From Candidatus Altimarinota bacterium (GTDB lineage: Bacteria > Patescibacteriota > Gracilibacteria > UBA1369 > LOWO2-01-FULL-3): a stretch of 49,477 nucleotides of DNA. Location: positions 1-49,477 of the forward strand of contig JAESSS010000096.1 of the NCBI GenBank assembly GCA_016763975.1, written 5' to 3'. The notes under the pieces are model-generated. The model was not told the origin of the DNA. It saw only the letters and a program-made list of their open reading frames with translations, and ran no database searches. Numbering within the stretch: position 1 is the first letter of the stretch; each line of letters opens with the position of its first letter. The translations under genes were made by a program, and so were the position numbers. This document shows, one piece after another, positions 12,438 through 19,875 of this stretch.

Positions 12438-13628
12438 CTAAATCCCATGCCTCAACACGTTCGTGCCATAAAGCTTCCTCACTTTGTCTATGGCATAAAA
12501 AAGCTTCTCCTCCTCATCACTACGCTCAAAAAGACTCAAATTGTACACCGATTTCAACCCACTAACCCCAATCCCCACCAACCTCACCGCTTCCCCCTCT
12601 CTCAAATTCTCCAAAAACAATTTCTTAGCCTCCGCAAACAATTTGGTGTCACACATACTCGGCAAATCCAAATGCCTCTGAAAACCATTGTCATCAAACT
12701 TCGCCCCCCCGTCCTCATAAACCTTGTATCTAATCTTCACAAAAATTGTACTGGCCTTCATGTTGTGACTCCTCAATTTCTCAAAAACCTGTCCCGACAT
12801 TTCCTTTAATTGTTTGATACAAGTCTGCTTCGAACTAACAATGCGATAAAAAGTATGTTCCTTGGAAATGGATTTGGGGGGAGGTCGCAGCGAAACAACT
12901 TCTGAATTATCAACACCCCGACACCTCTTCCAAAGCATAATAGTTTGTAATCCAAACTTGCCAATAACCTCTTCAGGACTCATCACTGCCAAATCTCCAA
13001 GTTTTTTCACCCCAACTCCTTCCAACAACGCACAAGTCCGTGGACCAATGCCCGGCATCGCCCTCAGGGAAAGAGGCGCCAGAAAATCCGCCTCCTTCCC
13101 AAACGGCACTACCGTCAACTTGTGTGGTTTATTCAAACCAGAAGCCACTTTGGCCACAACCTTGCTACTGGCCATGCCACAACTAACCGACAATCCCAAA
13201 TTGGAATGAACCTCCAGCAAAATGCTCTTAGCCAACATCTCCGCACTCTCCCCCCAAGTCTCCCCACATCCAGTAATGTCTAAATACGCCTCATCAATCG
13301 AAGCCATCTGAACGTCTGGAGTATATTTGCAAAAGACCTCATACATCCTTTTCGAGAAGTCTCGATAAGCCTCAAAATTCCCCCTCACCACAACTGCTTT
13401 CGGACACTTCTGTTTAGCCAAATACATTGGCATTCCCGACTTGATTCCAAAGCGCCTCGCTTCATAACTTGCGGCGGAAACGATACCGTTCTTGGAGCTC
13501 GGCCCACCAACTAATAGTGGAAGGCCTCTCAATTTAGGATTTAATATTTGCTCAACAGAGGCAAAAAAAGCGTCGGCATCAATGTGCAAGATGTGGCGCT
13601 TTCTCTGTTTTAAAGGGATATCAAACAT
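12438..13628 (-). CDS. dinB: DNA polymerase IV (Y-family translesion polymerase)
   Basis: 396 aa. It copies past damaged bases with low fidelity. The catalytic motifs are complete: HIDADAFFASVEQ at the N-terminus (first carboxylates), SYEARRFGIKSGM (nucleotide-binding fingers), and MASIDEAYLDIT (second carboxylates). The helix-hairpin-helix MPGIGPRTCALLEGVGV lies near residue 190 and the little-finger domain follows. The N-terminal MFDIPLKQRKR precedes the motif by about 15 residues. The start lies 2 nt after the stop of a 67-aa ORF, with lexA just upstream, so an SOS response link is likely, although I see no lexA-type operator directly before this pair. Confidence 0.96.
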   Translation of the reverse strand: MFDIPLKQRKRHILHIDADAFFASVEQILNPKLRGLPLLVGGPSSKNGIVSAASYEARRFGIKSGMPMYLAKQKCPKAVVVRGNFEAYRDFSKRMYEVFCKYTPDVQMASIDEAYLDITGCGETWGESAEMLAKSILLEVHSNLGLSVSCGMASSKVVAKVASGLNKPHKLTVVPFGKEADFLAPLSLRAMPGIGPRTCALLEGVGVKKLGDLAVMSPEEVIGKFGLQTIMLWKRCRGVDNSEVVSLRPPPKSISKEHTFYRIVSSKQTCIKQLKEMSGQVFEKLRSHNMKASTIFVKIRYKVYEDGGAKFDDNGFQRHLDLPSMCDTKLFAEAKKLFLENLREGEAVRLVGIGVSGLKSVYNLSLFERSDEEEKLFYAIDKVRKLYGTNVLRHGI

Positions 13629-13630
13629 GG

Positions 13631-13834
13631 CTAAAACATTGCTACTTGACCATCAATTTTGTAGGTCAGTTTTTTCAAAGACTTTTTCCAGTCTTTAGCT
13701 TTTTGCCATAAACTTCTTTTTTTGATTTGGAGTTTTCTTCTCCATCCGTTTGTGGCATCAAACTTTCTAGTGTGTAGTCTGACACTTTTGTGAGACTTTG
13801 CCTGTGATGTATCGATTGTGAGTGTTAAGAACAT
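13631..13834 (-). CDS. Small basic ORF coupled to dinB, 67 aa
   Basis: Unrecognised. The predicted peptide is strongly basic (Lys/Arg rich, with RRKLQIKKRSLWQKAKDWKK at its centre) with no membrane segment. Its TAG stop is followed after 2 nt by the dinB ATG, so ribosomes could pass directly from one to the other. It sits between the lexA terminator-like hairpin and dinB. It could be a small DNA- or polymerase-binding partner of DinB, but the composition alone could also arise by chance, so coding status is uncertain. Confidence 0.4.
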   Translation of the reverse strand: MFLTLTIDTSQAKSHKSVRLHTRKFDATNGWRRKLQIKKRSLWQKAKDWKKSLKKLTYKIDGQVAMF

Positions 13835-13858
13835 AATTCTTAGGGGTTAGGAAAATAC

Positions 13859-13879
13859 GGCTTCAATAAAACAGAAGCC
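13859..13879 (-). terminator. Possible terminator downstream of lexA
   Basis: On the minus strand, GGCTTC (13874-13879) pairs with GAAGCC (13859-13864) around a 9-nt loop, followed by GTATTTT. It lies 38 nt after the lexA stop and before the 67-aa ORF. The stem is only 6 bp, so termination would be partial. Confidence 0.45.
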
Positions 13880-13916
13880 AAATAACGATTTTTACTTTAT
13901 AAAGTTTGGGTGATTG

Positions 13917-14531
13917 CTAGTACTGCCGTATCAGGCTCGTCACCACTCCTTGGATTTCTAATTCATTCTCTGCATAAATATCTGAGTAGTCAGGATTTTC
14001 AGCTTTTAGGTAAAATTTGCCTTTCTGTTCAACAAATCTTTTGATTGTATTGCCACCATCAACAAGTGCAACAACGATATGACCTTTTCTCGCTTCTTTT
14101 TTCATATCTACCACTACAATATCTCCTTCAAAAATTCCTGCATCAATCATACTATCGCCTGTTACTTTTAGGAGGAAGTAGTCTTTTGAATTGGATGCGA
14201 TATCTTCACCAACTGACATCCAGCTATCTATGTATTCTTCGCTGAGTACAGGTCCTCCAGCGGGGATTGAACCGAGAAGAGGAAGTCTGATACCACTTGG
14301 AGCTTCAAATCTTTCTCTAACGGAACTAAGCAGTTTGATACCACGAGGTGTGTCGTCTTTTTCAATGAATCCTTTTTCTTTTAAAGCTTTGATATGTTTG
14401 AGGATACTATTGTCAGAGCTCACTCCAAAATTTTCACGCATCTCACGAAGAGTAGGAGACTTGCCTTCTGCAAGTTGGTATTCTTCGATGAATTTAAATA
14501 CCGCTTCTTGTTTTTCTGTGAGGTGTTCCAT
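13917..14531 (-). CDS. lexA: LexA repressor
   Basis: 204 aa. Represses SOS genes and cleaves itself when RecA filaments form. The N-terminal winged helix (residues 1-65) has the usual LTEKQEAVFKFIEEY opening and SPTLREMRENFGV recognition helix. The cleavage bond is Ala91-Gly92 in GSIPAGGPVL; the catalytic dyad is Ser127 (VTGDSMIDAGI) and Lys164 (GGNTIKRF). All are intact. It is transcribed from a promoter that carries two copies of an 18-bp palindrome, which implies autoregulation. The integrase gene lies immediately upstream on the same strand and dinB downstream. Confidence 0.97.
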   Translation of the reverse strand: MEHLTEKQEAVFKFIEEYQLAEGKSPTLREMRENFGVSSDNSILKHIKALKEKGFIEKDDTPRGIKLLSSVRERFEAPSGIRLPLLGSIPAGGPVLSEEYIDSWMSVGEDIASNSKDYFLLKVTGDSMIDAGIFEGDIVVVDMKKEARKGHIVVALVDGGNTIKRFVEQKGKFYLKAENPDYSDIYAENELEIQGVVTSLIRQY

Positions 14532-14540
14532 ATGTTTTTG

Positions 14541-14590
14541 GGTAAGTGTATGCTCACCCCCAATATAGGTGAGTAAACACTCACCGTCAA
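14541..14590 (-). promoter_or_regulatory. lexA promoter with two LexA-type operators
   Basis: On the minus strand: TTGACG (-35, 14585-14590), a 17-nt spacer, TATATT (-10, 14562-14567). A perfect palindrome GGTGAGT-N4-ACTCACC (14568-14585) fills the spacer; a second, near-perfect copy GGTAAGT-N4-GCTCACC (14541-14558) lies just after the -10 box. Centres are 27 bp apart. Repressor on either site would block RNA polymerase, so self-repression by LexA is the natural reading. The motif differs from both the E. coli (CTGT-N8-ACAG) and Bacillus (CGAAC-N4-GTTCG) boxes. Confidence 0.8.
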
Positions 14591-14609: not shown

Positions 14610-15464
14610 TCATAAAGGACTCTGGATTGTCTTGAGATAGGGCTTTGTCAGTTTGGTATAGCGCTGAGTTGTGCGGATATCTTTGTGGCCTAAGAGTTCT
14701 TGGACATGGCGGATGCTGCAGCCATTTTCTAACATATGCGTGGCAAAACTGTGCCTGAGGGAGTGAAAAGTTGCGTCTTTGTAAATGCCTGCTCTAAATA
14801 GGGAGTTGTTGAAAACTTTTTGCAGTGATCTACTGGTCAATTTGCCTCCACGCCGACTGGGGAAGATGAAGTCGCTGGGTGAAATTTCCCTGAAGATGCT
14901 GCGTAATTGCTCGTGTAGTTTTGCTGAAAAGATTGTGAGGCGATCCTTGCCGCCTTTGCCATTGCGGACCGTGAGTAGGGAATTGTGGAGGTCAATGTCC
15001 TTCATTTTTAGATTCAAAACTTCTGATATTCGCAATCCTGAGCTGTAGGCGAGGCTAATCATTAGGGAATATTTTTTATTTTCGGTTACTTCTATTAATT
15101 TGGAAATATCTTCACGAGTGAGTACCACCGTCAATTTGTTGTTTGTGACAGCTAGGGAAATGGGGTTTTTGAATTGAATTCCTCTGACATAACGATAGAA
15201 AAATTTGATTGCTTGTAGATAAAGGTTTGTACTTGAGGAGGAAAGGCCAAGTTCTCTTCTGGAAATTATAAAAAGTTTAACGACCTCGGCATCATAGTTA
15301 ACCGAGCCCTCGGTAAAAATCAAAAATTTCTTCACACAATAAAGATAAATATGAAGAGTATTTTTGCTATAGCCCTTCAACATAATCTCATGCTCAAGTT
15401 TGATCAGATGATCTCTCATAATAGTGGGTGATAAGTAACTAGGACTACACATGTTACAGATCAA
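14610..15464 (-). CDS. Tyrosine recombinase, candidate integron integrase
   Basis: 284 aa from 15464; the in-frame ATG at 15419 (MRDHLIKLEHEIMLKGYSKN) may be the true start, since it matches the usual Xer/IntI N-terminus better. The core-binding SAM-like domain spans about residues 16-100. Catalytic residues are complete: Arg145 (SGLRISEVL), Lys170 (NGKGGKDR), His234 and Arg237 (HSLRHSFATHM), His260 (LLGHKDIRTT) and Tyr269 (RYT). The extra IntI-specific segment normally found between the Lys and His-x-x-Arg motifs is absent, so by sequence it is XerC/XerD-like. Its position decides the reading: it faces away from a series of plus-strand genes bounded by attC-like sites, as integron integrases do. 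lexA lies 78 nt downstream. A plain chromosomal Xer is the alternative. Confidence 0.88.
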   Translation of the reverse strand: MICNMCSPSYLSPTIMRDHLIKLEHEIMLKGYSKNTLHIYLYCVKKFLIFTEGSVNYDAEVVKLFIISRRELGLSSSSTNLYLQAIKFFYRYVRGIQFKNPISLAVTNNKLTVVLTREDISKLIEVTENKKYSLMISLAYSSGLRISEVLNLKMKDIDLHNSLLTVRNGKGGKDRLTIFSAKLHEQLRSIFREISPSDFIFPSRRGGKLTSRSLQKVFNNSLFRAGIYKDATFHSLRHSFATHMLENGCSIRHVQELLGHKDIRTTQRYTKLTKPYLKTIQSPL

Positions 15465-15540
15465 ACTTAAAATTTTCTTAAAAAAAACTTAAAAAAACTA
15501 AAAGCCCCAAAACCCGCAGCAAAAAAACAAAACCAAGCTG

Positions 15541-15578
15541 TTTACACAAACAAAAGCATGCTATTTTGTTCGTATAAA
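15541..15578. repeat. Inverted repeat, candidate recombinase or regulator site
   Basis: Arms TTTACACAAACAAAA (15541-15555) and TTTTGTTCGTATAAA (15564-15578) match at 13 of 15 positions around the 8-nt spacer GCATGCTA. The size and spacing are like a two-arm tyrosine-recombinase core site, and it ends 5 nt before the putative insertion point GTTGTCG. It could equally be a repressor operator. Confidence 0.6.
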
Positions 15579-15582
15579 CAGA

Positions 15583-15595
15583 CGTTGTCGGAAAT
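15583..15595 (+). repeat. Candidate attI crossover (first copy of CGTTGTCGGAAAT)
   Basis: The 13-mer CGTTGTCGGAAAT occurs here and again exactly at 16017-16029. Both fit the pattern GTT-NNNN-GAAAT also seen as GTTAGGCGAAAT at 16559 and 18095. In integrons the strand exchange point is G^TTRRRY, so this copy is the likely attI or first cassette boundary. Confidence 0.6.
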
Positions 15596-15685
15596 TAAAA
15601 GGAGTTCTCACTCATAAAAAATTGGTTCGCTTTTTTTTCAAAGAAAATTTGATACAATCAAGAACCTAATAATTAACGATATCAC

Positions 15686-15982
15686 ATGCTTGAACAACAC
15701 GTATACGATCCTGATGCAGTAGTCATAGATCTATCTCGCCGACTAGATCGTGGAGATACTTCACATATCAGAATAGAAAATCCTGTAGAAGGTGATCCCA
15801 TCCCGGATGCTTTGTTAAGCCGACTCGATCATCTTTTTGATGGCAATTCAGCGCCAAGTGATATAGGTGGCCTTACCTTAAAAACCGGAGCAATTGCTGA
15901 GGAAAAAAAAGGCGAAATTGTTGATTGTCTACGATCACTTTTGGATGCTGGAGCAGAAATTTCTGTTCAATCAAATCCTTAA
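15686..15982 (+). CDS. Cassette 1 protein, unknown, 98 aa
   Basis: No family recognised. It is a soluble, acidic protein: residues 10-40 hold DLSRRLDRGDTSHIRIENPV and then PIPDALLSRLDHLFDG, with a C-terminal helix EEKKGEIVDCLRSLLDAGAE. No signal peptide or membrane helix. It is the only gene between the two copies of CGTTGTCGGAAAT (15583 and 16017), so it reads as the first cassette, although no paired attC arms are visible in the 35 nt after its stop. An extended -10 box (TTGATACAAT, 15649-15658) may drive it and the following cassette genes. Confidence 0.6.
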   Translation: MLEQHVYDPDAVVIDLSRRLDRGDTSHIRIENPVEGDPIPDALLSRLDHLFDGNSAPSDIGGLTLKTGAIAEEKKGEIVDCLRSLLDAGAEISVQSNP

Positions 15983-16016
15983 GCCAAGGAAATTAGAACT
16001 CATTTTTACATCCAAC

Positions 16017-16029
16017 CGTTGTCGGAAAT
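16017..16029 (+). repeat. Cassette 1/2 boundary (second copy of CGTTGTCGGAAAT)
   Basis: This is an exact second copy of the 13-mer at 15583-15595. The G^TT crossover would be at 16018/16019. Upstream TACATCCAACC resembles the right ends of the attC sites (CCAGCC, GACC before GTT), but no left arm is found, so the attC of cassette 1 is truncated or decayed. Confidence 0.55.
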
Positions 16030-16062
16030 GACTTTTGTCCTTATTATCTCAACAACAACGTT

Positions 16063-16443
16063 ATGAAAAAATTACTTGGTATATCATTAAGCTTCGTCAT
16101 TTTGCTTGCTGGCTGTTCTGGGGGAAATGATGCGTATGTGGAAGACAAGCTCGCAACTCCTCTTCAAGCTATTATTGCGGAAAATCTTTTACTGATTGAA
16201 AATAGTGATACATATCCGTTAAATACAGAATTGCACATAGAAAGAATGTTGCCTGAAAACCCCAAAGATTTACCTTGGCTCAAAGTAGTTATTATACAAG
16301 ATGGCCTACCTGATGATTCAATCAAAAGAGAAGAATCTGAACTTCATCTAAAACGCCAGCAAGATGGCTTATGGGAAGTAACCTACAGTGAGCTATTAGA
16401 CTTTGAATGTTATAGAGAAAAATCTAAGCAAGGTTGTATTTAG
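16063..16443 (+). CDS. Cassette 2 lipoprotein, unknown, 126 aa
   Basis: An N-terminal lipoprotein signal (MKKLLGISLSFVILLAGCSG, lipobox LAGC) predicts export and acylation on Cys18. The mature part is about 108 residues, with PLNTELHIERMLPENP and LPWLKVVIIQDG segments and two Cys near the C-terminus (FECYREKSKQGCI) that could form a disulfide. No family recognised. The gene fills the cassette between 16018 and attC site 1, with a 34-nt leader and 15 nt between the stop and the attC left core. Exported small proteins are a frequent cassette cargo. Confidence 0.72.
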   Translation: MKKLLGISLSFVILLAGCSGGNDAYVEDKLATPLQAIIAENLLLIENSDTYPLNTELHIERMLPENPKDLPWLKVVIIQDGLPDDSIKREESELHLKRQQDGLWEVTYSELLDFECYREKSKQGCI

Positions 16444-16458
16444 ACAAAAGTAACAAGA

Positions 16459-16565
16459 GCTAACAGGAGTATATCTGGTTCGCTCATTCCATTCACTCAC
16501 CCAAAATAGCTAGTGCACAAAAATTGTAGCACTAGCTATCTTCAGATATACTCCAGCCGTTAGGC
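16459..16565 (+). repeat. attC-like recombination site 1
   Basis: 107 bp. Left core GCTAAC (16459-16464) and right core GTTAGGC (16559-16565) flank perfect 12-bp inverted arms GGAGTATATCTG (16466-16477) and CAGATATACTCC. The unpaired patch between core and arm is A on the left and AGCC on the right, the kind of asymmetry that marks the recombining strand of folded attC sites. A second inner stem TAGCTAGTGC/GCACTAGCTA lies in the centre. The structure and its place directly after a gene match integron attC sites. Confidence 0.85.
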
Positions 16566-16649
16566 GAAATAGTAATAAATACGAAACAGGAAAACCTTGA
16601 CAGGGTACATAAGACATGGTTCAATGTGTCCTTAGTTAATCCGAACAAT

Positions 16650-17015
16650 ATGTTTAAAAAATTAGAAAGTATCAACCCCGGTCCATGCCTAGGTGTAAAT
16701 GACCCAATCAAAATAGGAGAACCTGTTGATTACAAGATCCCTCCTCAACCACTGAAACCTGATGAAGCAACTTATCCAACAGTTCTTGTAAAAGGCCTTG
16801 AAATTGTCGGAATTCGTGGCTGCATATACGCAAATTCGGGGCGAGGTAAAGACGCTACTGTTACATGTATGGCCGGTATCAAAGATCAAGATACGCCACT
16901 AACAGATAGTCAGAGACTTCCAGCATGCCTTCAAACTAGAACAGCAGTTTCTAATACAGTCGATATCAGCTCACTGTGGTCTAAAATGAAAGGGAATGTA
17001 ATACCTCAAAGATAA
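16650..17015 (+). CDS. Cassette 3 protein, unknown, 121 aa
   Basis: Starts at ATG 16650; an in-frame GTG at 16626 would add eight residues. No signal peptide or membrane segment and no known family. The first third is Pro-rich (INPGPCLGVNDPIKIGEPVD, then KIPPQPLKPDEATYP), the middle has LVKGLEIVGIRGCIYANSGR, and five Cys residues are spread over the chain, which is unusual for a cytoplasmic protein of this size. It lies between attC sites 1 and 2. The cassette leader is 85 nt, longer than the others. Confidence 0.6.
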   Translation: MFKKLESINPGPCLGVNDPIKIGEPVDYKIPPQPLKPDEATYPTVLVKGLEIVGIRGCIYANSGRGKDATVTCMAGIKDQDTPLTDSQRLPACLQTRTAVSNTVDISSLWSKMKGNVIPQR

Positions 17016-17031
17016 GTATTTATTACTAATC

Positions 17032-17137
17032 GCCTAACAGCGTATATGCGGCTCATTGCATTCGCGCAAATTTGCCAGCGGAACACCTGCGGTGTATTTT
17101 ACCGCTAGCAAACATCAGATATACGCGACCGTTAGGC
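17032..17137 (+). repeat. attC-like recombination site 2
   Basis: 106 bp with complementary end cores GCCTAAC (17032-17038) and GTTAGGC (17131-17137) and inner arms GCGTATAT (17040-17047) / ATATACGC (17119-17126). The centre holds a nested hairpin TTTGCCAGCGG...CCGCTAGCAAA with a smaller AACACC/GGTGT stem, nearly identical to that in site 3. The cassette that begins at 16560 starts TTAGGC, which pairs perfectly with this left core. Confidence 0.88.
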
Positions 17138-17172
17138 AACATTTACCACAGCGATACATCAATAATATACAA

Positions 17173-17550
17173 ATGGGATTAAATAAACCAAGAGAGACAG
17201 GAGAAGAAAGCGATGCAAGGAAAGAGGAGTTACGCCTAAAATATCTTCCAAAATTTCAAATGCTTCGACACGAGTACATCGAAGTTCTTCCATCACAAAG
17301 AATTAGTTGGGATTTGCCCGACTATTTAAAATACAAAGCTAGAGGATCATTCTTCACAATGATTAGAGCTGACATAGAATTCCTTGTTACTTCCGGTGTT
17401 ATTACCGATACAACAGTAATTGCCCAAGGAGAAGAATTCGCAAGATATATGTTGGAAGAACACCCATATCCTGAATTTACAAGAATGGAAGATATACAAG
17501 TTGCAAATAATATTCTAGACGTACTAATAACATCGCTTTCAGGTCACTAA
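17173..17550 (+). CDS. Cassette 4 protein, unknown, 125 aa
   Basis: The open frame reaches back into attC site 2, but the ATG at 17173 (MGLNKPRETGEESDARKEEL) gives the sensible start, 36 nt after the cassette boundary. It is a mainly helical soluble protein, with charged N-terminus, a central ISWDLPDYLKYKARGSFFTM segment and a C-terminal helical pair (EEFARYMLEEHP, VANNILDVLITS). No family recognised and no export signal. It ends 15 nt before attC site 3, giving the compact gene-plus-attC unit expected of a cassette. Confidence 0.62.
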   Translation: MGLNKPRETGEESDARKEELRLKYLPKFQMLRHEYIEVLPSQRISWDLPDYLKYKARGSFFTMIRADIEFLVTSGVITDTTVIAQGEEFARYMLEEHPYPEFTRMEDIQVANNILDVLITSLSGH

Positions 17551-17565
17551 TCTGTGGCAAACATC

Positions 17566-17672
17566 GCCTAACAGCGTATATGCGGCTCACTTCTGTTCGC
17601 CCATATTTGCCAGCGGAACACCTCCGGTGTATTTTACCGCTAGCAAACATCGCCTATACCCTGCCCTTGTCG
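17566..17672 (+). repeat. attC-like recombination site 3
   Basis: 107 bp. Left core GCCTAAC (17566-17572), right end CTTGTCG (17666-17672), arms GCGTATA / CCTATAC (partly paired), and the same nested central hairpin as site 2 (TTTGCCAGCGG to CCGCTAGCAAA). The left half belongs to cassette 4, whose own start is TTAGGC and pairs with GCCTAAC; the TTGTCG right end belongs to the next cassette. The mismatch between the two halves of one site is therefore what cassette insertion predicts. Confidence 0.8.
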
Positions 17673-17721
17673 AAAAAGAAAATATATGTTATAGTACTGC
17701 TCTATACATAATTTATAAACC

Positions 17722-17982
17722 ATGGAATCTAAAAATTTACTAAGCGAAGGATCGAGAGCAGAAATGATAGATGATCCAAAAGTAGGTGATGAAATTACGG
17801 TCAGAGGTGGAGAAGTGAGGGTAGCTTGGGTAAGCCAGACTGAGGTTTGTGTTCAGAGACTGCCATTAAGTCCAATAAATGCAAGAAACGTTGGACTAAC
17901 ATCAAAATTAGGAGCTGATTTTCAAAATTTTTGCAACGAAGCTGATCATGGAAACTCAGCCTTCTATAAAGGATTGATATAG
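17722..17982 (+). CDS. Cassette 5 protein, unknown, 86 aa
   Basis: Small soluble protein. Residues about 20-45 (VGDEITVRGGEVRVAWVSQT, then VCVQRLPL) look like two beta hairpins of a KOW/SH3-like or LSM-like fold, though that is only a pattern guess; the rest is polar. No family recognised. The leader contains several TATA-like words (TATACATAATTTATAAACC just before the ATG), so it may have its own promoter. The cassette spans 17667-18095 and is bounded by attC sites 3 and 4. Confidence 0.55.
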   Translation: MESKNLLSEGSRAEMIDDPKVGDEITVRGGEVRVAWVSQTEVCVQRLPLSPINARNVGLTSKLGADFQNFCNEADHGNSAFYKGLI

Positions 17983-17994
17983 TATTTTCTCATC

Positions 17995-18101
17995 ACACAA
18001 CAGCGTATATCTGGCTCGCTAACGCTCGCCCATATTTTGCGCTGCAATCACTTCGTGATATTTTAGCATCACCAAACATCGCATACACCCAGCCGTTAGG
18101 C
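17995..18101 (+). repeat. attC-like recombination site 4
   Basis: 107 bp. Left core ACACAAC (17995-18001), right core GTTAGGC (18095-18101), arms GCGTATATCTGG / GCATACACCCAG region, and a central ATCAC-TTC-GTGAT hairpin. ACACAAC does not fit the right core here but its complement GTTGTGT shares five bases with GTTGTCG, the start of its own cassette 5. In an excised circle the left core pairs with the cassette's own start, so this supports a mobile origin. Confidence 0.8.
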
Positions 18102-18122
18102 GAAATATCAGAACAAACAACT

Positions 18123-18581
18123 ATGGAAACAAGAACGGCAATAATTAGCGACGCAAAAGAAATGCAACTCCTGCATACAAATGCTATTAAAAAAACCTGT
18201 AGTGATTGTTATTCAAAAGTACAAATAGATGTATGGCTTGATGGCCGAACGCCGGAGGGTTATCACGAAGCTATCAATAAGGGAGACATGTATGTGGTAG
18301 TAGAAAATAGAATGATAGTTGGGTTCGGCCATGCAATTCCTGGCGAAATTGTTGCCATTTACGTAGATCCAGCTTCACATAAAAAAGGAATTGGGAAATT
18401 GTTACTAGAGTACGGACTCCAGATTGCATTAAAAGGCCACACAAATGTCAAAGTCGAATCGAGTATCAACGCAGAAGGTTTCTATAAAAAACATGGTTTT
18501 ATCAAAATTCGTGATGGCGTTCATATCACTAAGGGCGTTGAGTCTCCCACAGTCATTTTAGAATATTCAAAATCAAGCTAA
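18123..18581 (+). CDS. Cassette 6 GNAT-family N-acetyltransferase
   Basis: 152 aa. Transfers an acetyl group from acetyl-CoA to an amine; substrate unknown. The N-terminal motif is METRTAIISDAKEMQLLHTN; motif A with the CoA pyrophosphate loop is VAIYVDPASHKKGIGKLLLEYG (residues about 80-100, Q/RxxGxG/A as KKGIGK), and motif B is AEGFYKKHGFIKI (residues about 119-131). The His23-like N-terminal region CSDCYSKVQIDVWLDG is shared with many stand-alone GNATs of this size. Acetyltransferases are among the most common integron cassette genes. It begins 21 nt after the GTTAGGC of attC site 4. Confidence 0.88.
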   Translation: METRTAIISDAKEMQLLHTNAIKKTCSDCYSKVQIDVWLDGRTPEGYHEAINKGDMYVVVENRMIVGFGHAIPGEIVAIYVDPASHKKGIGKLLLEYGLQIALKGHTNVKVESSINAEGFYKKHGFIKIRDGVHITKGVESPTVILEYSKSS

Positions 18582-18610
18582 CCGCAAACATTGTACGCCA
18601 TGCTGAAAAG
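18575..18610 (+). repeat. Possible decayed attC remnant
   Basis: After the GNAT stop the sequence GCTAACCGCAAACATTGTACGCC resembles the right half of the good sites (CCGCTAGCAAACATCGCCTA...), sharing GCTAAC-like and CAAACAT words, but no GTTRRRY end and no paired arms follow. It may mark the old end of cassette 6. Confidence 0.3.
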
Positions 18611-19413: not shown

Positions 19414-19875
19414 ATGAGTATTAGAAAGGCGAATAAAACTGACAAAGTTCAAATTCAAACTCTTATGAATGAACTTAATTTGTATAGAAAAAATATTTTC
19501 AGCCCTGATAACCAAAAATTTCATGAAAGACTAACTCCATATCCTCCTCTGCAAGATGCAGACTTTGATGAAAGTTTAATTTTTGTAGCAGCCAACGACT
19601 CAGCTCAGATAGTTGGATTTATTCAAGGCAGTGTCGAAGAAAGAAAAAATCACAAACTAAGTAAGCTCGGGTACATTGATGAAATTTACGTTCAAAAAGA
19701 AGCTCGAGGCCAAGGAGTCGCCAAAAACCTTTTTTCAGAGCTTCAATCTGAGTTCAAAAACCAAGGGTGTGATCACATGACAACTCATACAGACTTTGAG
19801 AATGAATTATCTCAGCAGTTTTATTCGAAGGCTGGTATGCACAAAGCAACAGTTGAGTTGTGGCAAAAATTGTAA
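19414..19875 (+). CDS. GNAT-family N-acetyltransferase
   Basis: 153 aa. The N-terminus MSIRKANKTDKVQIQTLMNE is typical; motif A is IDEIYVQKEARGQGVAKNLF (residues about 89-108) with the RGQGVA CoA loop, and motif B is LSQQFYSKAGMHKATVELW (residues about 133-151). Substrate unknown. It is the second GNAT of the island, not close to the one at 18123 by eye. It follows the 105-aa gene by 19 nt. No attC site is visible on either side, so if it arrived as a cassette its site has decayed. Confidence 0.86.
   Translation: MSIRKANKTDKVQIQTLMNELNLYRKNIFSPDNQKFHERLTPYPPLQDADFDESLIFVAANDSAQIVGFIQGSVEERKNHKLSKLGYIDEIYVQKEARGQGVAKNLFSELQSEFKNQGCDHMTTHTDFENELSQQFYSKAGMHKATVELWQKL

Follow-up and report, generated by a model that had tools for sequence, protein, structure and literature searches.

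Does a patescibacterium carry an integron, and if so, which recombinase drives it? Patescibacteria are a large group of host-dependent bacteria with reduced genomes, and integrons are already on record for archaea as well as for many bacterial phyla. The question is raised by a 49,477-nucleotide contig (the whole stretch analyzed, hereafter the window) from a Peregrinibacteria-type patescibacterium with a 1.45-Mb genome, in which an initial annotation had seen an integron of a CPR genome. We put the probability that the locus represents a patescibacterial platform for gene capture, chromosomal and of the integron type, at about 0.88. This reading is drawn from sequence, namely, from site architecture, stem covariation, R''/R' units, a single orientation, an attI, association with a recombinase, and differing cassette content. 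The integron architecture and mechanism are thus strongly supported; the integrase, however, is distinct from IntI and lacks the IntI-specific domain.

As annotated, a minus-strand tyrosine recombinase (14610..15464) faces a row of small plus-strand genes. Its open reading frame (ORF) is intact, encoding 284 amino acids without an internal stop, its top Pfam match is Phage_integrase (4e-44), and the alignment places in it all residues that are invariant among its relatives (R145, K170, H234, R237, H260, and Y269). With 190 bits, the protein stays below the 265-bit cutoff of the IntI profile TIGR02249, which was passed by none of the 30 genomes of the window's family and by none of 362 Patescibacteria genomes. 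It is also below the NF040815 cutoff (204 versus 220 bits) and far below those of the XerC/XerD profiles, while a XerA-type profile scores as high on it as the IntI profile does. The predicted structure (pLDDT 88.7) is matched best by IntI4 in the integron recombination complex (2a3v; Z 23.9 over 256 residues), with XerA as a second close match (Z 23.0), so the fold alone does not separate IntI from XerA. What does is the IntI-specific domain around patch III: it is absent from the window's recombinase, and profile and structure-sequence matches alike skip the region. Because a test for this defining domain showed that it is missing, we do not class the protein as IntI. Accordingly spaced are its relatives: the box II arginine and the catalytic histidine have 58 residues between them in 42/42 clade members examined, compared with 97 to 100 in IntI and 56 to 71 in most other relatives. 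In a maximum-likelihood tree built without columns less than 30% filled, a filter expected to take out most of the IntI insert, the 42 recombinases form a single clade (100/99) that is sister to IntI (96/90) and lies outside both the IntI clade and the Xer sequences. By alignment and tree, this clade is the closest cousin of IntI, a sister lineage that is neither IntI nor Xer; the genomes that hold it have separate Xer-like recombinases as well.

Further recombinases were found near attC sites. The one from genome G169 had been expected from an end-to-end alignment to be a true IntI, an assignment that we rejected, as its extra residues lie elsewhere and the IntI motif is absent; it represents a second non-IntI lineage with its own, different insertion and adjoins attC sites in a divergent arrangement (L216 57-3301, L205). 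In the parcubacterial locus L013, a recombinase with no IntI insert, placed by the tree outside the main clade, has attC sites upstream of it.

The palindromic sites described after the plus-strand genes were recovered at 16458-16565 (s1), 17032-17137 (s2), 17566-17672 (s3), and 17995-18101 (s4). They are 106 to 108 nucleotides (nt) long, and three of them, 64 to 100% alike, are copies of one 107-nt repeat family. The complementary ends GCCTAAC/GTTAGGC, which had been ascribed to every site, form an exact pair at 17032 only and are imperfect in the other three, partly because the R'' of an integron site should pair with the R' that starts its own cassette. From related loci we defined a strict attC geometry: TCRNNYAAC, one base, an 11-bp L'' arm, a variable middle, the L' arm, four bases, and GTTRNNYGA. 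In a set of 28 sites, pairing of the L stem reaches 97%, with changes on both sides in 10 of 11 pairs and a covariation score of 0.476 (0.143 in shuffles and <0.06 when slid). The proposed run of an attC covariance model on the window returned all four sites, including s3 and s4, which had been left out of training (E values of 1.7e-8, 1.2e-9, 1.2e-4, and 3.6e-8 for s1 to s4). Folding of the bottom strand, also proposed, gave a more divided result: s1, s2, and s3 beat dinucleotide shuffles (z of -6.6, -3.2, and -4.4), but s4 does not (z of -0.6), which marks it as degenerate. Arrays of attC sites with foldable R''/L'' and L'/R' arms, by which integrons are recognized, are therefore present. 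Rfam, which may hold no attC model, gave no match in the window. Elsewhere, the sites of L188 (G274) come in pairs just 70 to 130 bp apart, possibly delimiting gene-less cassettes, and most junctions of L185 (G041) read A|TT in place of G|TT.

A cassette that is a circle opened between G and TT is expected to show it in its two ends. In a first set, R'' was perfectly complementary to the R' of its own cassette in 15/20 cases and to that of the neighbor in 2/20; over 31 loci, the figures are 50/75 for the own R' and 5/75 for the following one, while 20,000 permutations of the own-start pairing averaged 5.2 and never exceeded 15. This own-start complementarity implies circular cassettes inserted at G|TT. 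At the same 31 recombinase loci, the 104 detected attC sites share a single strand and are all located on the array side, with none on the opposite strand; here the strand bias is stronger than the side bias, because most of the sequence examined was array-side.

At the window's locus, the array appears to comprise six cassettes, all on the plus strand, judging by truncated junctions at about 16018 and 18590. Cassette 1 (15585..16018) carries an ORF of 98 amino acids without a family (15686-15982) and ends in an R'-type junction, GTTGTCGGAAAT, with no complete attC; a 13-bp repeat, CGTTGTCGGAAAT, occurs at both of its boundaries (at 15583 and again at 16017). Cassette 2 (16019..16559) combines a lipoprotein ORF (16063-16443) with s1, cassette 3 (16560..17131) an ORF without a family (about 16653-17015) with s2, and cassette 4 (17132..17666) a 125-amino-acid ORF without a family (17173-17550) with s3, whose 3' core is eroded to CTTGTCG. 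Cassette 5 (17667..18095) holds an 86-amino-acid ORF without a family (17722-17982) and the degenerate s4, and cassette 6 (18096..18590) a GNAT ORF (18123-18581) and, behind it, the remnant of an attC end, GCAAACATTGTACGCCAT (18584-18601), which is truncated and, matched by eye, resembles R' ends in other arrays (L116, L121). The cargo named at the outset was borne out, the lipoprotein by a LAGC lipobox in its sequence and the GNAT by Pfam; the remaining cassette proteins have no Pfam match. The own-start rule holds exactly in cassette 3 and over seven core bases in cassette 4 and is clear only in these two, cassettes 2 and 5 being eroded. Given that cassette 1 lacks a complete attC and that s3 and s4 are eroded, the array, as its sequence reads, may be partly fossil. 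Beyond the last attC, between 18600 and 21000, further small plus-strand ORFs follow, among them a second GNAT (19414-19875); these may be eroded older cassettes.

Between recombinase and array lies a candidate attI, GTTCGTATAAACAGAC|GTTGTCGGAAAT (15568..15595, plus strand), with the predicted crossover between G15584 and T15585. Such sites were discovered by searching upstream of the recombinase for an R' that matches the R'' of the first cassette. A consensus, TTCGYATAAnAACGA|GTTRNNYGAAAT, precedes the recombinase in about 20 genomes, usually 60 to 190 bp from its start. With a weight matrix built only from 19 sites of other genomes, the window's attI scored 22.2 bits and ranked first of 98,900 positions (runner-up, 12.3). 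Integrase, attI, attC sites, and one-way cassettes are hence all supported by sequence in the integron order and orientation that had been claimed. The left arm of attI repeats the R box in inverted orientation and resembles one arm of dif, which hints at a Xer/dif-type origin. Around this arm, an imperfect inverted repeat found by eye, CTGTTTACACAAAC ... GTTCGTATAAACAG (15540..15580), is a possible pair of integrase-binding arms.

The recombinase is flanked on its other side, at 12438-14585, by lexA (13917-14531, minus strand) and a DinB-type polymerase gene. Because lexA adjoins the recombinase, CTGTTTACACAAACA and TTGTTCGTATAAACAG upstream of the latter were first read as LexA boxes; comparison with other genomes identified the second as the left arm of attI, and the reading was dropped. 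The palindrome upstream of lexA itself, GGTGAGTAAACACTCACC (about 14568-14585), differs from both, and no site matching it was seen upstream of the recombinase. Nor does lexA adjoin the recombinase in L010, the one relative whose neighbors were examined in full. For these three reasons (the identity of the attI arm, the different lexA palindrome, and the L010 locus), we do not claim SOS control.

In the reading that we favor, the locus would work as follows. The recombinase would recombine a circular cassette, through its attC, with attI at 15584|15585, and joining of attC to attC would excise and shuffle cassettes. Each attC would be recognized as a one-strand hairpin in which an unpaired spacer accompanies an R stem and an 11-bp L stem, and cleavage would fall at G|TT in R'. 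We infer that the recombinase beside the array is the catalyst and that it acts on the folded single strand, and the window's copy is presumably still active. Unlike IntI, it would do so without the IntI-specific domain. This is a point against the proposal, as that domain is reported to be necessary in IntI (Messier and Roy 2001, through PMC9668308).

How widespread is the system? The initial annotation had presented it as a striking device in a CPR genome; it is no one-genome oddity, the recombinase being present (E <= 1e-33) in 52 of 380 sampled Patescibacteria genomes, or about 14%, and covariance-model attC sites in at least 60. Both occur in 38 genomes, the recombinase only in 14, attC only in 22, and neither in 306 (Fisher P = 3e-25); within the window's family of 30 genomes, the corresponding numbers are 13, 4, 3, and 10 (P = 0.009). 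Because only a limited number of candidates was scored in each genome, the true attC numbers may be higher, and the P values are inflated by shared ancestry. The 22 genomes with attC only could be CALIN-like, incompletely assembled, or served by another recombinase. Orthologues are found in 17 of the 30 family genomes (the window's included), the others having 43 to 48% identity; several sit directly at contig ends, where arrays that disrupt assembly would be expected to leave them. The closest named relatives of the window's recombinase are from Peregrinibacteria (48% identity), and a scan of viral contigs gave a single distant match only. Among 44 named non-CPR genomes that served as controls, three had covariance-model attC matches, one of them a woesearchaeote (G403). 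The latter has 13 matches, of which those in L210 keep the R''/R' rule; no recombinase of the Patescibacteria kind was found on three stretches of it (L210, L211, and L212). In Flavobacteria, L209 (G442, Gillisia) and G410 yielded short attC-model matches of about 69 nt.

These distributions bear on three other accounts of the locus. The array could be a CALIN whose cassettes owe their movement to a canonical IntI or to XerCD, the neighboring recombinase being an unrelated Xer or phage enzyme. Its lack of the IntI insert, its score below the IntI cutoff, and the 22 genomes that have attC sites but no detected orthologue would all agree with this. We nevertheless consider it improbable, since 0/362 genomes of the phylum hold a protein over the IntI cutoff, recombinase and attC co-occur (P = 3e-25) in the same divergent arrangement with attI in between, and the recombinase clade is sister to IntI rather than nested in Xer. 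Even less credible is that the contig is a contaminant or that a mobile integron was newly gained from a non-CPR organism: although the assembly comprises 103 contigs with 2.3% contamination, the nearest recombinases are all patescibacterial (42 to 49% identity), related arrays are carried by large contigs, among them the only contig of genome G021 and a 0.98-Mb contig of G155, and only 3/44 control genomes have matching attC sites.

We give the least credence of all to the idea that the palindromes are transcription terminators or REP-like or MITE-like repeats downstream of genes. Every site does follow a gene, most fold into a stem, and three of the window's sites are 64 to 100% alike, yet neither terminators nor dispersed repeats are expected to complement the start of their own unit (50/75 versus 5/75). 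The sites also co-occur with the recombinase, and a search of the remainder of the window's 1.45-Mb genome found none away from the array.

The integron-type platform that we favor has much in common with IntI chromosomal integrons such as the Vibrio superintegrons (IntI4, 2a3v): a divergent integrase with attI upstream of it, co-oriented cassettes, attC sites of about 80 to 200 bp with R''/R' logic, an inner L stem, and a variable tip, and crossover at G|TT. It differs in its integrase, which lacks the IntI insert (58 versus 97 to 100 residues from box II Arg to His) and belongs to a separate sister clade, in its highly variable R cores, extended to TCRNNYAAC/GTTRNNYGA, and in its attI, which has a conserved TTCGYATAA arm, the inverted R-box copy. 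With XerA/XerC acting on dif, the recombinases share the catalytic fold, the length, and the absence of an insert, but they group with IntI in the tree and are associated with attC arrays. Archaeal integrons likewise place attC arrays outside classical hosts, but for archaeal IntIs the presence of the IntI-specific domain has been reported (PMC9668308), whereas the Patescibacteria recombinases lack it. In contrast to CALINs, a dedicated recombinase adjoins the Patescibacteria arrays.

A recombinase without the defining IntI domain would explain why standard searches have missed these integrons. IntegronFinder requires matches to both PF00589 and an IntI-specific profile (PMC9668308), and such a search would probably label the Patescibacteria arrays as CALIN or miss them. 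Surveys limited to the complete integrons in IntegronFinder output (for example, PMC12259885) would probably leave them out as well, a blind spot. Our literature search, whose coverage lay outside preprints and most subscription journals, found no report of a Patescibacteria integron, and from sequence comparison we rate the variant with an IntI-sister integrase, phylum-wide in Patescibacteria, as new. We lean toward the view that Patescibacteria own a phylum-wide integron class whose integrase split off the IntI lineage before the IntI-specific domain arose, or lost that domain. On this view, recombination at attC would need no IntI-specific domain, and integrons may predate IntI as now defined. 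The sister integrase offers a natural test of whether folded-attC recombination needs the domain and of the origin of integrons from Xer-type enzymes. If the reading is true, host-dependent bacteria with reduced genomes own a gene-capture machinery. The cassettes of these arrays include restriction-modification and other defense-like genes.

Across arrays, 125 of 146 ORFs (median, 176 amino acids) share the array orientation. Their products include EcoRI-type and HaeIII-type endonucleases, several DNA methylases, HNH proteins, GNATs, and AbiLi-like proteins. Cassette turnover, which the initial annotation had suggested looking for in related strains, is supported in that homologous cassettes occur in the arrays of different genomes (for example, 69% between G026 and G022, 64% between families f116 and f54), and the congeners G024 and G025 have the non-array side of the recombinase in common, while their array sides, compared over partial stretches, show no mutual match. 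At L117 (6748-12013), two attC sites are separated by 5.3 kb with ORFs of 686 and 927 amino acids, suggesting a very large cassette, as the own-start rule is still obeyed across this distance.
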